Source of the DNA: Deltaproteobacteria bacterium RBG_13_61_14
GTDB lineage: Bacteria; RBG-13-61-14
DNA length: 25,100 bases
Direction of reading: 5' to 3'
Assembly: GCA_001797815.1 (NCBI GenBank)
Contig: MGQK01000125.1
Coordinates: 57,204 to 82,303, forward strand
Shown here: positions 2,867 to 8,761 of the stretch, one piece after another
How the letters are laid out: the number at the start of each line of letters is the position of its first letter
How positions within the stretch are numbered: the stretch's first letter is position 1
Made by a program: the position numbers and the translations under genes
Notes under the pieces: generated by a model
Database searches by the model: none
What the model was told of the DNA's origin: nothing
The model's input: only the letters and a program-made list of their open reading frames with translations

Positions 2867-4177
2867 CTACGGTGCCGGAGTTTTCAATTCTTCGGGCGCG
2901 ATCAGACGGCCCTGCGGCAAGTATTCCCCCAGTTGGTCGGTTACCGCTTCTCCGGCCGGAACCGCGCCGGCCAGGAAGGGAAAATCCGGGGACGGCACCA
3001 TGTTCCGGTAAACCAGGATGGAAACCGGCTTCCCCTTCAGGTCCACCCAGGTGTAGCCGTTTTCCGAATTCGCCTTTGCCGGCCGGGGCGCGCCGAAGCC
3101 GATGACCAGGTTCACGTATCCGTCCGGCCCGATCACCGCTTCGGCGTCAGCCAGGGTGAACAGGGTGAAACTCCGGCTGGAAGCAAACGACAGGCTCCAG
3201 TAGCGGACGTCCTCCCGGCCGGTGATGTTGCCAAAGTGAAAGGTGTCCGGGAAACTCGGCGCTTTCCAGCGGATCAGGAGTAATTGCTTCGGGTCCGGCT
3301 TGACCCCCGCGATCAGATACACGGTCTCCGGGTTTTCGCCCGCGGCTTCAGGCGAACGGCGCCATTGCAAAACCCGGTTCGGTTCCTTCCCGGCAGAGAG
3401 CGATTCTTGCCAAGCCTGGCGGCCGAGCAGGAGCAGGGCCGAAGGAATGACCCCGGCTTTTTTAACCATCAACCACCGGGCTTTGATTTTCTCCATGAAG
3501 GGGGAGGGCGGTTGGACCAGACTGCCGTCGGATACTTTCCGAAAATAGACCAGGGGCTTCTTCACCCCGCAGTCCTCATCCAGCCCCTCGCTCGGCAAAT
3601 AACGCCGATAACCCAGCAGCCCCTCGGGATTTTCCCTGCCGTCCTCCCGCGTCCCCAGGTAAAGCACGTTGCCATGCACTCCCTGGATTCCCCGGAACCC
3701 GGCTTCCGCCGATCCCTCCGGCGGAGCGGTCCAACGGACGAGGAGCGTAAAGCGCCGGTTGGGCGCGTTGAAGTCTTCGCCGGGCCGGAAAGGGTTGACC
3801 GAGCCGGGGTCCGGCGCGATCTGGGCATCGTGGATGCTGGCAATGGGCCGATGGTCCGCGTCGTAGGCGATAAAGGAAAAGTAAGCGCAATAGGGATAAT
3901 CGCCCTGGATCACCATTTCCAGGGAAGGATCGGCGCGGTAGTAGCGCATGGGGTAGTTGGCGTGCAGGTCGGTGAAGAACAAGGTCCGCGGAAAGGCCAG
4001 GTTCCAGGGAGAGACATATTCCGCAGAGACCTCTGGTGGGTTCGACGCGCTCACCATCGAAGGAGGATTCGACAGGCTCACCATCGAAGACGAATTCGAC
4101 AGGCTCACCACAGCAGGGCCATTCGCCCCTGCTGCCGCCATTCCCAAAATCAGGCTGATCCCGATGCGCTTAATCAT
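2867..4177 (-). CDS. Secreted protein of unknown function with N-terminal 9-residue repeats
   Basis: A 436-residue protein with a Sec-type signal peptide (MIKRIGISLILGMAAAGANG). I do not recognise a named family. Right after the signal peptide come three 9-residue repeats (VVSLSNSSS, MVSLSNPPS, MVSASNPPE; about residues 22-50) encoded by 27-bp DNA repeats. The body has NYPMRYYRAD, an FNAPNRRFTLLVRW segment, and later RYWSLSF followed by a DGYVNLVIG segment. Extracellular hypothetical proteins often carry a similar RYWSxx...DGxxxxVI pattern, but I cannot name a Pfam. It lacks catalytic motifs I can identify. AGGGAG lies 7 bases upstream of the ATG. It precedes the two PHP lipoproteins on the same strand, so all three may be envelope proteins expressed together. 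Confidence 0.75.
   Translation of the reverse strand: MIKRIGISLILGMAAAGANGPAVVSLSNSSSMVSLSNPPSMVSASNPPEVSAEYVSPWNLAFPRTLFFTDLHANYPMRYYRADPSLEMVIQGDYPYCAYFSFIAYDADHRPIASIHDAQIAPDPGSVNPFRPGEDFNAPNRRFTLLVRWTAPPEGSAEAGFRGIQGVHGNVLYLGTREDGRENPEGLLGYRRYLPSEGLDEDCGVKKPLVYFRKVSDGSLVQPPSPFMEKIKARWLMVKKAGVIPSALLLLGRQAWQESLSAGKEPNRVLQWRRSPEAAGENPETVYLIAGVKPDPKQLLLIRWKAPSFPDTFHFGNITGREDVRYWSLSFASSRSFTLFTLADAEAVIGPDGYVNLVIGFGAPRPAKANSENGYTWVDLKGKPVSILVYRNMVPSPDFPFLAGAVPAGEAVTDQLGEYLPQGRLIAPEELKTPAP
4041..4121. repeat. 27-bp tandem repeat, three units, inside a coding region
   Basis: Three consecutive 27-bp units start at 4041, 4068 and 4095. Each begins TTCGAC(A/G)(G/C)GCTCACCA; the first two continue TCGAAG, while the third diverges in its second half. 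Within a unit, TTCGA and TCGAA form a short inverted pair. The unit length is a multiple of three, so the reading frame of the secreted protein is kept and the repeat appears as nine-residue repeats. The TTCGACAGGCTCA wording matches a type of small palindromic repeat I recall from many bacterial genomes, where it is found between and within genes. Confidence 0.85.
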
Positions 4178-4266: not shown

Positions 4267-4947
4267 TTATTTATCATAAAAAGAACAATTCTTCCTCAAT
4301 AAACAGGTGCTACAAATAGCGGACTTATTTTTACAAATTAAAGATGCATAATCAATCATTGCAAGGTTAACGGTTATAGTTTCATCACAATTTACAATCT
4401 CTCTTGCCAGGCACTGCATTTGCAAATCAAAGCGAAGATCTTCTTTACAGGAAATCCCAAAATATCTAGATAATAGTCTTGCTACATTTACATCGAGCAA
4501 TGGACTACGATTCTTAAAGTAAAAAAGCATTATAGAATTAGAAATATATTGCCCAATACCAGGAAGAAATTCTAGCGCCTTTACATCTTTGGGGAACTTA
4601 CCACCGGATTTGTCTATGATTACCGCCAGTTTCTTCAGTGTAATTGATCTTTTTCGCCAAAGACCCAAGGGTCTTAAAACTTTACCCAGCTCTCTATTAG
4701 AAGCATTCGCTATAGATTTCCAATCGGGATATACTTCAAGAAATTCATTGTAATGCTGCTTCACTATTTCTGCTTTAGTTCTCTGCAGAAGAATTTCAGC
4801 TATAATTCTATTATAATTTGATATACGGCTTCCTCTCCATGGAAATTTCCTTCCATTTTTGCTAAACCAATTTAACAATAATTTTCTAAAAAACTTTATC
4901 TGTCGAAGTGATGGATATGAGTCTTCCTTTTTGCTTACCTTTCTCAT
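4267..4947 (-). CDS. HhH-GPD DNA glycosylase with 4Fe-4S cluster, Mig.MthI-like (G/T mismatch thymine glycosylase)
   Basis: A 226-residue member of the endonuclease III/MutY superfamily. Seen: FPWR near 35-38, Glu51 in AEILLQRT, the helix-hairpin-helix LPGIGQY (128-134), catalytic Asp152 in LLDVNVARLL, and a C-terminal iron-sulphur loop Cys205-X6-Cys212-X2-Cys215-X5-Cys221. The residue at the EndoIII catalytic lysine position is Tyr134 (GQYIS). MutY has Ser there. From memory, the thymine glycosylase Mig.MthI, encoded beside M.MthTI on the archaeal plasmid pFV1, has Tyr. The short length without a MutY C-terminal domain agrees. It is the last gene of an MTase-REase operon, so the inferred role is removing T from T:G mismatches left when 5-methylcytosine deaminates. 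It is AT-rich, unlike the flanks. There is no strong ribosome-binding site. Confidence 0.9.
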   Translation of the reverse strand: MRKVSKKEDSYPSLRQIKFFRKLLLNWFSKNGRKFPWRGSRISNYNRIIAEILLQRTKAEIVKQHYNEFLEVYPDWKSIANASNRELGKVLRPLGLWRKRSITLKKLAVIIDKSGGKFPKDVKALEFLPGIGQYISNSIMLFYFKNRSPLLDVNVARLLSRYFGISCKEDLRFDLQMQCLAREIVNCDETITVNLAMIDYASLICKNKSAICSTCLLRKNCSFYDK

Positions 4948-4978
4948 TTCTAAATTAGCTTTTTTCGAACATATAATT

Positions 4979-5734
4979 TTATTTCATATGATTAGAAAGA
5001 TGCATTTCGATAGTTTTCTTTAATCGCATCAGCTCTTTTAACTGTGGAGAAACAGTAGTTTCTCCACCAGTTCCAAGCAAGAAGAACTTTGAGTGAGCCT
5101 GAGACGCTTCGACAATAGATAGGTCCATTTCCTTCCTTAAGGCAACTTGAACTGAAAGACAGTGTGGATTTCCCTTTGTAATTAATTGGTCACGGCCTAG
5201 CCAATCAAAAAATTCAGATTGAGAAACACGTATTTTGGAATTAATGGTAACAAGAGGCAACACCCTCTGATTCTTATTTAATTTTAATATTGGGAGGCGA
5301 GGCCATCCAACTTCAGGTTCCTTTATTTTATCTTCTTCTTCAATATAACCAATAGCAATATCTGTCCTTTCTGAAGGGCTTTTTACGCTTACATCGCCCT
5401 TTTCCCATAAATGATAGTGTCCAAAAGTAACGCTCACCTCGGAAAATATATCAAGCCTCTGAAACTTTTCACATATCTTTATTGCAAAATTCAAGAGATA
5501 ATCTTGAAGTAGTGATCCTGGCAAATTTCTTGCAAGATTTTGGCTAATTGAATATTTCTCCTTATTTTCTTTTTTTCCAAGCCAGTTATACCTTTCTATC
5601 AATTCATCAAAAGCCTCAATTGGGTCGCAACCAGCTAAAACATTATATACATTTTTTGTCTGCAATAATTCCTCAGCTAATTGCTTATTTCCTTCTTTTC
5701 TAAATTCTTCTATATACTGATTTAAAAATAGCAT
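4979..5734 (-). CDS. Probable type II restriction endonuclease
   Basis: A 251-residue protein lying between a C5 methyltransferase (17 bp upstream) and a mismatch glycosylase (31 bp downstream), which makes it the expected restriction partner. The sequence shows a helical N-terminal half (LPGSLLQDYLLNFAIKICEKF, about 71-91). A candidate nuclease core follows: RTDIAIGY with Asp125, then a hydrophobic strand PLVTINSKIRVS with Lys167. In a PD-(D/E)XK fold the acidic residue two before the lysine is replaced here by Asn165, so the catalytic set is atypical or sits elsewhere (Glu99, Glu111 and Glu174 are nearby candidates). The segment SQSEFFDWLGRDQL plus GNPHCLSVQVALRKEMDL looks conserved and may match the Bpu10I-type family, but this is only a recollection. 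The target site cannot be read from sequence. Codon use is AT-rich. Confidence 0.7.
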   Translation of the reverse strand: MLFLNQYIEEFRKEGNKQLAEELLQTKNVYNVLAGCDPIEAFDELIERYNWLGKKENKEKYSISQNLARNLPGSLLQDYLLNFAIKICEKFQRLDIFSEVSVTFGHYHLWEKGDVSVKSPSERTDIAIGYIEEEDKIKEPEVGWPRLPILKLNKNQRVLPLVTINSKIRVSQSEFFDWLGRDQLITKGNPHCLSVQVALRKEMDLSIVEASQAHSKFFLLGTGGETTVSPQLKELMRLKKTIEMHLSNHMK

Positions 5735-5751
5735 AATTTAAACCTACAATA

Positions 5752-6948
5752 TTATTTTTGTAACGCTCTCAATAGATTTTCTGCAATAGCTTTTGCTAAT
5801 AATGGCGGAACTGCATTACCAACTTGCGAATATTGTGGCAATTCTAAATTTCTTTTTTTATTTCCCTTACCTCCTCCTCCTGTAGCCCTAGGACCAAGAA
5901 ATTCAAATGTATCATCAAAGGATTGAAGTCTCGCCATCTCTCTAACGGTAAGTATTCTTGGCTGAGTATAATGAACAAGATCATCTGGAAGAGTTACTAC
6001 AGTAAAAGATGGCAAATCGGGATTCAATTTCACACACCATTTCTTAGATGATCTTAAGTGCTGATTCCAAGCCAATTTGGGGATGGAATCAAGACCTTTA
6101 CCCTGCTCTATTAATGCAAATCGAGCCATAACTATAGGTGTGTGACATGCAGCATCATGGTTTTTTAATATATTATCTTTTCTTGAAATGCCAAGTTTTG
6201 TAAATAAGCGACCATTACGACTATCAATTTGGTAATCTGTAACGGGAGGATAATCACTATCATATGAGCCATTATTTTCCCATGGTCTCAGAAATTCTAG
6301 ATCACCAATTGCTTCTCTTACAGTAATAGGTTTATTAAAATGAGTTTTATCAATTTCCTCAATTGGTGTCATATCCTTTCTATTTCCTATGAATATAATC
6401 CTCTCTCGAGCCTGAGGAACTCCGAAATCTGTAGCATTAACTTTAATCGGCCCAACGATATTATATTTGACTCTTTTCATACTCGAAACTTCTTTATATA
6501 TAAGATTAACAATTTCACCCTCATACATCATAGCTAATCCTGGAACATTTTCCATTACAAAATACTTCGGCCTGATTTTCTCAATTACTTTTAGATACGG
6601 TAAAAATAAGTCGTTACGGGGATCTTTTCGATCTCTCTTACCAAACAAGGAGAAACCCTGGCAGGGTGGGCCGCCTACAATAAGATCAACATGATATTTT
6701 CCAGAAATATTATAAATACACTTTAAAAGATTGTCAAGAAAATACTTATCTCGTATATCCTCAACAAGAAATGAATAATCTAATCCTAGTTGCTGGCGGA
6801 ATCTATTCTCATGAGTATATTTTGCCAAATAATGAATATCACTTGCTGCGACTAGACGAAATTTCTTCTTTGGATTTCCTGCAAGCAACACTCCTTCGGT
6901 GAAGCCCCCAGCGCCAGAGAAGAGATCAATAAATGTGAATTCCGGCAT
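5752..6948 (-). CDS. DNA (cytosine-5-)-methyltransferase of a restriction-modification system
   Basis: A 398-residue C5-cytosine methyltransferase that transfers a methyl group from S-adenosylmethionine to cytosine in DNA. All major motifs are present in order: motif I DLFSGAGGF (8-16), motif IV GGPPCQGFS (92-100) with nucleophile Cys96, motif VI ENVPG (133-137), motif VIII QARERIIFIG (179-188), motif IX REMARLQSFDD (336-346), and motif X QVGNAVPP (375-382). The target-recognition region should lie at about 200-330. Length is normal for the family and nothing appears truncated. The ATG at 6948 has GGGAG 8 bases upstream. It is first in a minus-strand operon with the putative endonuclease and the glycosylase, preceded by a strong sigma70-like promoter. 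The low GC marks recent acquisition. Confidence 0.97.
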   Translation of the reverse strand: MPEFTFIDLFSGAGGFTEGVLLAGNPKKKFRLVAASDIHYLAKYTHENRFRQQLGLDYSFLVEDIRDKYFLDNLLKCIYNISGKYHVDLIVGGPPCQGFSLFGKRDRKDPRNDLFLPYLKVIEKIRPKYFVMENVPGLAMMYEGEIVNLIYKEVSSMKRVKYNIVGPIKVNATDFGVPQARERIIFIGNRKDMTPIEEIDKTHFNKPITVREAIGDLEFLRPWENNGSYDSDYPPVTDYQIDSRNGRLFTKLGISRKDNILKNHDAACHTPIVMARFALIEQGKGLDSIPKLAWNQHLRSSKKWCVKLNPDLPSFTVVTLPDDLVHYTQPRILTVREMARLQSFDDTFEFLGPRATGGGGKGNKKRNLELPQYSQVGNAVPPLLAKAIAENLLRALQK

Positions 6949-7000: not shown

Positions 7001-7029
7001 ATGTTATCAAAAATTCAAACTGCTGTCAA
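7001..7029 (-). promoter_or_regulatory. Sigma70-like promoter of the restriction-modification operon
   Basis: On the minus strand TTGACA (7024-7029, perfect -35) is separated by 17 bases from TAACAT (7001-7006, 4 of 6). The sequence upstream of the -35 is AT-rich like an UP element. The predicted start of transcription is about 45-50 bases before the methyltransferase ATG. No second promoter or control-protein gene is visible in the cassette. Confidence 0.7.
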
Positions 7030-7265: not shown

Positions 7266-7336
7266 CTACGGATGATCCTCGCATCGGCCAATTCATCTTT
7301 TAAAAAATCTGCGAAATCTGCGGATGCTCCTGAGGA

Positions 7337-7418
7337 TTTTACCACAAAGACACTAAGGCACAAAGCTTTAAGAAAAGAAGGACTTTGGGTTTTGAGTCTT
7401 TGAGCCTTGGTGGTAAAA
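7337..7418. repeat. CACAAAGACACTAAGG-type imperfect inverted repeat, copy A
   Basis: The left arm TTTTACCACAAAGACACTAA (7337 on) is imperfectly complementary to the right arm ending GCCTTGGTGGTAAAA (7404-7418). The right arm plus its continuation recurs downstream in copy B. Similar CAAAGNCACCAAGG/CCTTGGTGNCTTTG arms occur in many unrelated environmental genomes as dispersed palindromic repeats (recalled, not searched). Confidence 0.7.
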
Positions 7419-7476
7419 ATCCTCTTTGGACGGAATCGTAGCAAAACTGATTATTCATGTCAAGAAAGAAATAGGA

Positions 7477-7683
7477 GATTTAACCACAAAGGCACCAAGG
7501 CACTAAGTGATAAGAAAATAAGGGCTTTTCCTGCTTTGAGTCTTTGAGCCTTGGTGGTAAAAATCCTCTCTTCTTTCTCGGTGCTCTCTGCCTTCGGCCC
7601 GAGCTCAGGCCGAGGGGTGGCTCTGTGGTCAAAAATCCTCTTTGGACGGAATCGTAGCAGAACCGGATAATCGTGTCAAGAAA
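7477..7683. repeat. CACAAAGGCACCAAGG-type repeat, copy B, with an internal insertion
   Basis: Left arm TTAACCACAAAGGCACCAAG begins at about 7480. The 35 bases at 7535-7569 are identical to 7391-7425 of copy A, and the 29 bases at 7631-7659 are identical to 7415-7443. Compared with copy A, copy B has about 60 additional bases between these blocks, including a 30-base palindromic element at 7591-7620. Homology to copy A continues with substitutions to about 7683. Confidence 0.8.
7591..7620. mobile_element. Putative 30-bp palindromic repeat element with 5-bp flanking duplication
   Basis: Thirty bases containing GCCCGAGCTCAGGCCGAGGGG are flanked on both sides by CTCTG (7586-7590 and 7621-7625). 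Removing the 30 bases and one CTCTG restores GTGCTCTCTGTGGTC, the wording normally seen in this repeat family. A related 31-base sequence in opposite orientation lies at 8049-8079. Together this suggests a small non-autonomous element that inserted into a pre-existing repeat. Confidence 0.5.
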
Positions 7684-7753
7684 ATAATAGTGGACTGTGC
7701 GCAGTGCACAGTAAGCAGTGGAAATCATAAGGAAAAGGAGGGGATCGGAGTTC

Positions 7754-7960
7754 CACGCAAAGTCGCCAAGGCTCTCAATGTAGGAAAGGAGACAAGAGAA
7801 GATGACGCAAAGAAAATTAAGCCGCAATGGATTTCCCGTCTTGCGTCGCTGCTTCTTTGCGGCTAAGCATGAAAAAGGAGGAGCACTGGGAATAAGACAA
7901 GTTGCGATTATTTTCTAAATCTTTACCTTTGGAGTCTTTGCGGCTTGGCGTCTTTGCGTG
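7754..7960. repeat. 207-bp element with 17-bp terminal inverted repeats
   Basis: CACGCAAAGTCGCCAAG (7754-7770) and CTTGGCGTCTTTGCGTG (7944-7960) are inverted copies with 16 of 17 bases matching. The interior carries further CGCAAAG/CTTTGCGGC words in both orientations (about 7812-7865 and 7934-7945). There is no coding potential inside. It resembles the other CAAAG/CTTTG palindromic repeats of this interval but has longer, cleaner arms. Confidence 0.75.
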
Positions 7961-8048
7961 AAACTCTTGATCTGGTCTTTGGTTCCGGCTCGGCCGGGTT
8001 AGGCTTTAGGCTTCAGAACAAGAAGATCTGTCCTCGACCCCGAGCGCT

Positions 8049-8241: not shown

Positions 8242-8362
8242 CCGCAAAGGAGCAAAGGGAAGAGAGGGAATCAGTTCAAGTTCACGTGCAAGTTAAGGTT
8301 CAAGGATAAAACTTTAATTCCCTGCCAACCGCCAACCTTCAACTGCCAACCGGCTTCAGCCT

Positions 8363-8446
8363 GGGGTGGTTGCCGCGTTAGATGGGGTGGTTGCTGAGCA
8401 GAATGGGGTGGTTGCCGTGCAGAATGGGGTGGTTGGCGCGCAGAAT
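8363..8446. repeat. 21-bp tandem repeat, four units
   Basis: Four head-to-tail 21-base units start at 8363, 8384, 8405 and 8426. Each begins GGGGTGGTTG and ends with AGAT or AGAAT; the middle positions vary (CCGCGTT, CTGAGC, CCGTGC, GCGCGC). A fifth partial unit GGGG begins at 8447. There is no spacer, so this is a minisatellite. Although 21 is a multiple of three, no surrounding gene supports a coding role. Confidence 0.85.
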
Positions 8447-8761
8447 GGGGGGACGTTTGAAGAGGGTATATCGTATGTCGTATGTAGTATGTCGGAAAAG
8501 AGAAGAAGAAGAAACCAAGAGAAATTTCGCCAGGTTAAGTTGGTTCCCGGGCGGTCGGAGAGGAGGGTCAAAGGATTAGGAAGGGCCGATGGCAGGAATG
8601 GGGGAGCGTTTTGGGGGCGCTGGTCCAAAAAGATATTGAGAAATCGCCAGGTTAGCATCTCGAACAGTTGTTCTATTTCAACCTTCATCCTTGACCCTTC
8701 ACCCTTCAAACTTCACTGTCCCCTATTATATGTATGTTTGTTGCAGTTTTTAAGGAATTGG

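Follow-up and report, generated by a model that had tools for sequence, protein, structure and literature searches.

5-Methylcytosine is mutagenic, and restriction-modification (R-M) systems built around a C5-cytosine DNA methyltransferase (MTase) therefore need a cure for T:G mismatches. The principle of linking glycosylase repair to such a system has been known since Mig.MthI, which is encoded in Methanothermobacter thermautotrophicus by plasmid pFV1 (NC_001336), close to the R-M genes of MthTI. In the Dcm/Vsr system of very-short-patch repair, a repair gene is likewise tied to a C5 MTase and undoes 5-methylcytosine-to-T changes, here by means of the nicking endonuclease Vsr. Mig.MthI acts on both U/G and T/G, and substituting V for A50 and Q for L187 shifts its activity from T/G towards that of an A/G glycosylase (PMC2714593). 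Two surveys of R-M systems record only Vsr under repair function (PMC10609329; PMC8011034). The attachment of glycosylases to C5 systems with unrelated endonucleases in bacteria and archaea appears to have been little surveyed in the open-access text; REBASE may list more.

We analysed a 25,100-nucleotide stretch of DNA (the window) from Deltaproteobacteria bacterium RBG_13_61_14, which lies on a contig of 147.5 kb and carries three closely spaced genes on the minus strand. The first gene encodes a 398-aa C5 MTase (5752..6948), the second a 251-aa probable restriction endonuclease of the PD-(D/E)XK type (4979..5734), and the third a 226-aa HhH-GPD/4Fe-4S DNA glycosylase (4267..4947). All three open reading frames listed in the first-pass annotation are present, separated by 17 bp between the MTase and the 251-aa gene and by 31 bp between the 251-aa gene and the glycosylase. 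The three-gene block is AT-rich (34-36% GC, against 62% in the rest of the window), and its GC3 of 25-28% compares with 76-93% in the neighbouring genes. Given this foreign base composition, the simplest reading is that the cassette was horizontally acquired as one unit; a search for direct repeats flanking it found none. Taken together with the evidence below, we consider it highly probable that the locus is a horizontally acquired Type II R-M cassette that carries its own Mig.MthI-type mismatch-repair gene in place of Vsr.

A consensus scan placed a candidate cassette promoter on the minus strand at 7001..7029, approximately 50 bp upstream of the MTase ATG, with the form TTGACA-17-TAACAT (10/12) and an extended -10 element. 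The same scan found a perfect promoter-like match (TTGACA-17-TATAAT, 12/12) on the minus strand within the MTase coding sequence at 6709..6737. With both sites present, a single promoter ahead of the MTase serving all three genes is only possible, and the internal site might drive the endonuclease and glycosylase separately. Several repeats occur nearby. The intergenic region upstream of the cassette (7335-7966) holds several copies, direct and inverted, of a 'ACCACAAAGRCACYAAGGCAC' type element, and imperfect 21-bp tandem repeats, apparently intergenic, lie at 8357-8461. Three 27-bp tandem repeats at 4035-4115 specify a repeated Ser/Asn/Pro peptide just past the putative signal region of a neighbouring 436-aa ORF.

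The MTase matches PF00145 (E 6e-57) and the PADLOC MTase_II model (E 2e-86), and contains the C5 motifs FSGAGG, PPCQGF, ENV, QARER and GNAV, as its original assignment to the C5-cytosine family would predict. No other gene in the 4.74-Mb genome, an assembly of 132 contigs at 95% completeness, matches PF00145. None of the nearest plasmid-borne MTases (33-42%) comes with an annotated endonuclease from which the target could be named. Since this MTase is linked to a protein with a predicted restriction-endonuclease fold, and the pair is kept in Calothrix and Caulobacter, we assign the system provisionally to Type II.

The 251-aa protein has no family match in sequence searches of Pfam, NCBIfam and the PDB, and its sequence matches that of no known restriction enzyme. 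Low-scoring hits from Pfam, NCBIfam, PADLOC and the PDB (GST_N_5, E 0.056; Cas8b, E 0.008; homing endonuclease, E 0.05; colicin D, E 0.25) were set aside as noise. Calothrix sp. NIES-4105 and Caulobacter sp. 602-2 each encode a homolog with 56-57% identity, and in both the gene comes immediately after that of a homologous MTase. A search of approximately 780 cyanobacterial and proteobacterial genomes gave no relatives beyond those already known, and none appeared in the plasmids, phages and viral contigs searched. In Calothrix sp. FI2-JRJ7 the pair is degraded to a 61-aa MTase remnant and a shortened endonuclease (L015:4858-5552). No glycosylase adjoins the pair in Calothrix or Caulobacter; the relatives encoded in those genomes are all of EndoIII or MutY type. 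The MTase and 251-aa protein therefore form the unit, to which the glycosylase is an addition. Among genomes with a related pair, Vsr occurs only in that of Caulobacter; two others (G003 and G005) have neither a Mig-type glycosylase nor Vsr, so a repair gene is not obligatory.

We modelled the window protein (pLDDT 76.7, pTM 0.81) and its Caulobacter homolog (pLDDT 78.3, pTM 0.81) with AlphaFold and compared both models with known structures. BbvCI is the top fold match of the window model (Foldseek E 1e-6; Z 14.7 over 223 residues, rmsd 4.5) and also of the Caulobacter model (Z 10.9 over 211 residues, rmsd 4.4), in each case well ahead of the next-ranked structures. Because the alignments underlying them share one set of four sequences, these models are only partly independent of each other. 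This BbvCI-like endonuclease fold, found with both query models, gives substance to the earlier description of the gene as a probable endonuclease, and the protein is probably a restriction endonuclease of an uncharacterised family.

Like BbvCI, Bpu10I, Bsu36I and BlpI, the 251-aa protein is predicted to have a helical N-terminus and a PD-(D/E)XK-like core, and it is of similar size. Although the fold agrees with that of the BbvCI-like family, the sequence similarity and the D...E-x-K active site of that family are absent. D125 and K167 are invariant among the homologs, and K167 is preceded by N165-S166 rather than by the canonical glutamate of the D/EXK motif. A candidate active site thus comprises E99, D125 and N165-S166-K167. 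In BbvCI the Asp and Lys are strictly required and the Glu less so, and a small neutral residue is possible in the related NgoMIV family (PMC6326814). BbvCI is built from two subunits with E-x-K motifs, whereas the cassette has a single endonuclease gene with N-S-K, which points to a homo-oligomer with a palindromic target. E174 (K+7) of the window protein, positioned by sequence spacing only, replaces a Met of Bsu36I, BlpI and Bpu10I (PMC6326814), and the target may accordingly differ from theirs.

The third gene product matches PF00730 (E 9e-14), with a cluster of the form Cys205-X6-Cys212-X2-Cys215-X5-Cys221 and a catalytic Asp152, and so belongs to the HhH-GPD/4Fe-4S glycosylases to which it was first assigned. 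The nearest PDB chain is that of Mig.MthI (1kea, E 1e-33), ahead of the best MutY (7e-23). Seven residues were examined in a 40-row comparison, and the window residues F35/E51/R56/A59/Y134/D152/L195 are identical to F27/E42/R47/A50/Y126/D144/L187 of Mig.MthI. The corresponding positions in MutYs, including that of E. coli, are L/M, E, Q, V, S/T/Y, D and Q. All 18 Mig-type rows share Tyr134, Asp152 and the four Cys. EndoIII (Nth) of E. coli and Calothrix has Lys at the position of Tyr134, which separates the window protein from Nth. The first-pass annotation also took Tyr134 to favour T:G activity over MutY, but Tyr is present here in 5/13 MutYs, making the residue necessary and insufficient rather than diagnostic. 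On homology to Mig.MthI, we predict that the enzyme acts on T:G (and U:G) mismatches.

Alternatively, chance might have placed beside the R-M genes a short adenine glycosylase of MutY type, or a general stand-in for a missing MutY. Its best-scoring NCBIfam model is indeed TIGR01084 mutY (E 9e-44), and the genome search turned up no MutY-like gene. The TIGR01084 score is far under the model's cut-off (150 versus 286.5 bits), however, and Mig.MthI itself scores similarly at 153 bits. Each of the 14 MutYs examined has a Val and a Gln where the protein has Ala59 and Leu195. The protein is 226 aa long against 316-383 aa for the MutYs, and lacks both their C-terminal extension and a C-terminal 8-oxoG domain. 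Both trees unite the 13 MutY rows in a clade (100/99) that excludes it, and EndoIII is separate. Phylogeny thus places the protein within neither MutY nor EndoIII, and the earlier preference for a Mig.MthI-type enzyme over MutY agrees with the nearest structure, the residue signature and the position outside the MutY clade. Two genomes of the same order also have no MutY-like match, so there is no fresh loss of MutY to compensate, and we regard the MutY explanation as very unlikely. The exact position of the glycosylase is less sharply drawn, as it is a long row whose branch beside MutY has only 71/73 support. The data do not reject a topology uniting all Mig-type rows (AU p 0.41), and the tree does not support a settled placement as sister of Mig.MthI. 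Matches in phage records are MutY-like at 26-32%, and the viral contigs contain no near relative.

The repair background of the genome is consistent with a role in T:G repair. Three HhH-GPD genes were found, namely the cassette glycosylase, one of DR2438/Nth type and one of 3-methyladenine type, together with one UDG-family gene. PF03852 (Vsr) has no match in the 132 contigs. With a single C5 MTase and no Vsr, no candidate for T:G repair is obvious apart from the cassette glycosylase, within the limits of an assembly that is 95% complete; the apparent lack of Vsr and of a second C5 MTase could instead reflect assembly gaps.

We next consider the genomic neighbourhood of Mig-type glycosylases, scored with one HMM for C5 MTases and with record annotations. 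Outside one cyanobacterial clade, a C5 MTase lies within 2.1 kb of the glycosylase in 14/14 cases, compared with 1/39 MutY controls within approximately 1.5 kb. The 14 comprise the window, one cyanobacterial contig with a divergent pair (L071), and 12 plasmid records from Caldicellulosiruptor, Alisedimentitalea, Thermus (four), Methanothermobacter and haloarchaea (five); the four Thermus plasmids are mutually related, so not all cases are independent. An arrangement first thought to be rare and known from an archaeal plasmid is therefore also carried by plasmids of Caldicellulosiruptor, Alisedimentitalea, Thermus and haloarchaea. Those linked endonucleases that could be identified are of varied type, being NgoFVII-type in L005, MvaI/BcnI in L006, NgoPII on pFV1 and BbvCI-like in fold in the window.

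The cyanobacterial clade behaves differently. None of its ten rows (L067, L068, L070, L072-L077 and plasmid L007) has a C5 MTase within 5 kb, and the Mig-type family therefore also lives outside R-M systems. The pocket in this clade reads F/E/K or R/A/Y/D/L. In four of these loci a DUF416 protein (PF04222) adjoins the glycosylase or lies within 1.2 kb of it (L070:5852-6478, L074:4193-4927, L076:4312-4941 and L077:3163-3792). The clade's distance from C5 MTases, together with the U/G activity that accompanies T/G activity in Mig.MthI (PMC2714593), would fit an enzyme whose main task is genome-wide repair of U:G or other deaminated bases and which rides in the cassette as a mere passenger. Against this stand the UDG-family gene already present in the genome, the 31-bp spacing and shared foreign base composition that tie the glycosylase to the endonuclease gene, and the 14/14 linkage outside the cyanobacterial clade. 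We accordingly give a passenger role little credence.

A role in restriction itself, in which the glycosylase attacks bases of incoming DNA in the manner of R.PabI, or attacks modified phage bases, seems more improbable still. Base-excision restriction does exist (PMC10273834), and a 5hmC glycosylase protects against T-even phages (PMC13160076). R.PabI, however, has a fold unrelated to that of N-glycosylases (PMC4081073), the cassette has a separate gene with an endonuclease fold, and the glycosylase pocket is that of a T:G enzyme. PADLOC labels its Mig.MthI model 'Type II nicking endonuclease', but that model is essentially Mig.MthI itself (533 bits), so the label is a matter of nomenclature.

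Two described or sequenced loci most closely resemble the cassette. On pFV1, the glycosylase also lies near a C5 MTase and an endonuclease gene and has identical pocket residues, and we propose the same function for the cassette glycosylase as for Mig.MthI, with which it shares approximately 33% identity. The pFV1 endonuclease is of the NgoPII family, and the genes are divergently oriented with an extra ORF between them, whereas the cassette has three co-directional genes and a BbvCI-like endonuclease fold. The Alisedimentitalea scapharcae plasmid (NZ_CP123587, L006) shares the order MTase, endonuclease, glycosylase on one strand, and its MTase is related to that of the cassette (E 2e-39), but its endonuclease belongs to the MvaI/BcnI family. 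Its glycosylase is the closest row found (40%) and groups 100/100 with the cassette glycosylase in the first tree; it was omitted from the second. The reading frame of this gene (L006:5001-5639) is open only from 5070, which interrupts the N-terminus, and the gene may be decaying.

The proposed mechanism is as follows. The MTase would place 5-methylcytosine in its target site, and the BbvCI-fold PD-(D/E)XK-type nuclease, probably as a homo-oligomer, would cut the same site when unmethylated. Deamination of 5-methylcytosine would yield T:G mismatches beyond the reach of uracil glycosylase repair. The cassette glycosylase would then flip out and excise the T opposite G to leave an abasic site, and base-excision repair would restore C:G. 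It would thereby replace the Vsr endonuclease of other C5 systems, a nicking enzyme of unrelated fold, with a glycosylase predicted to make an abasic site. The sequence itself shows the gene order and families, the pocket residues, the linkage to MTases, and the lack of a detected Vsr or second C5 MTase; from the predicted fold we infer endonuclease activity and from homology T:G excision, and the scheme as a whole, with methylation and cutting at one site, is built on these.

More broadly, we lean towards the view that Mig-type glycosylases linked to R-M genes form a modular and widespread alternative to Vsr, in bacteria as in archaea, and have repeatedly been attached to C5 systems with unrelated endonucleases; the cassette would be a version with a new BbvCI-fold endonuclease family. 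Annotation names such glycosylases MutY or hypothetical. Two pocket residues combined with linkage to an MTase offer a simple way to find this second solution to the T:G problem, and the cassette provides both a bacterial candidate T:G glycosylase and an uncharacterised endonuclease family.
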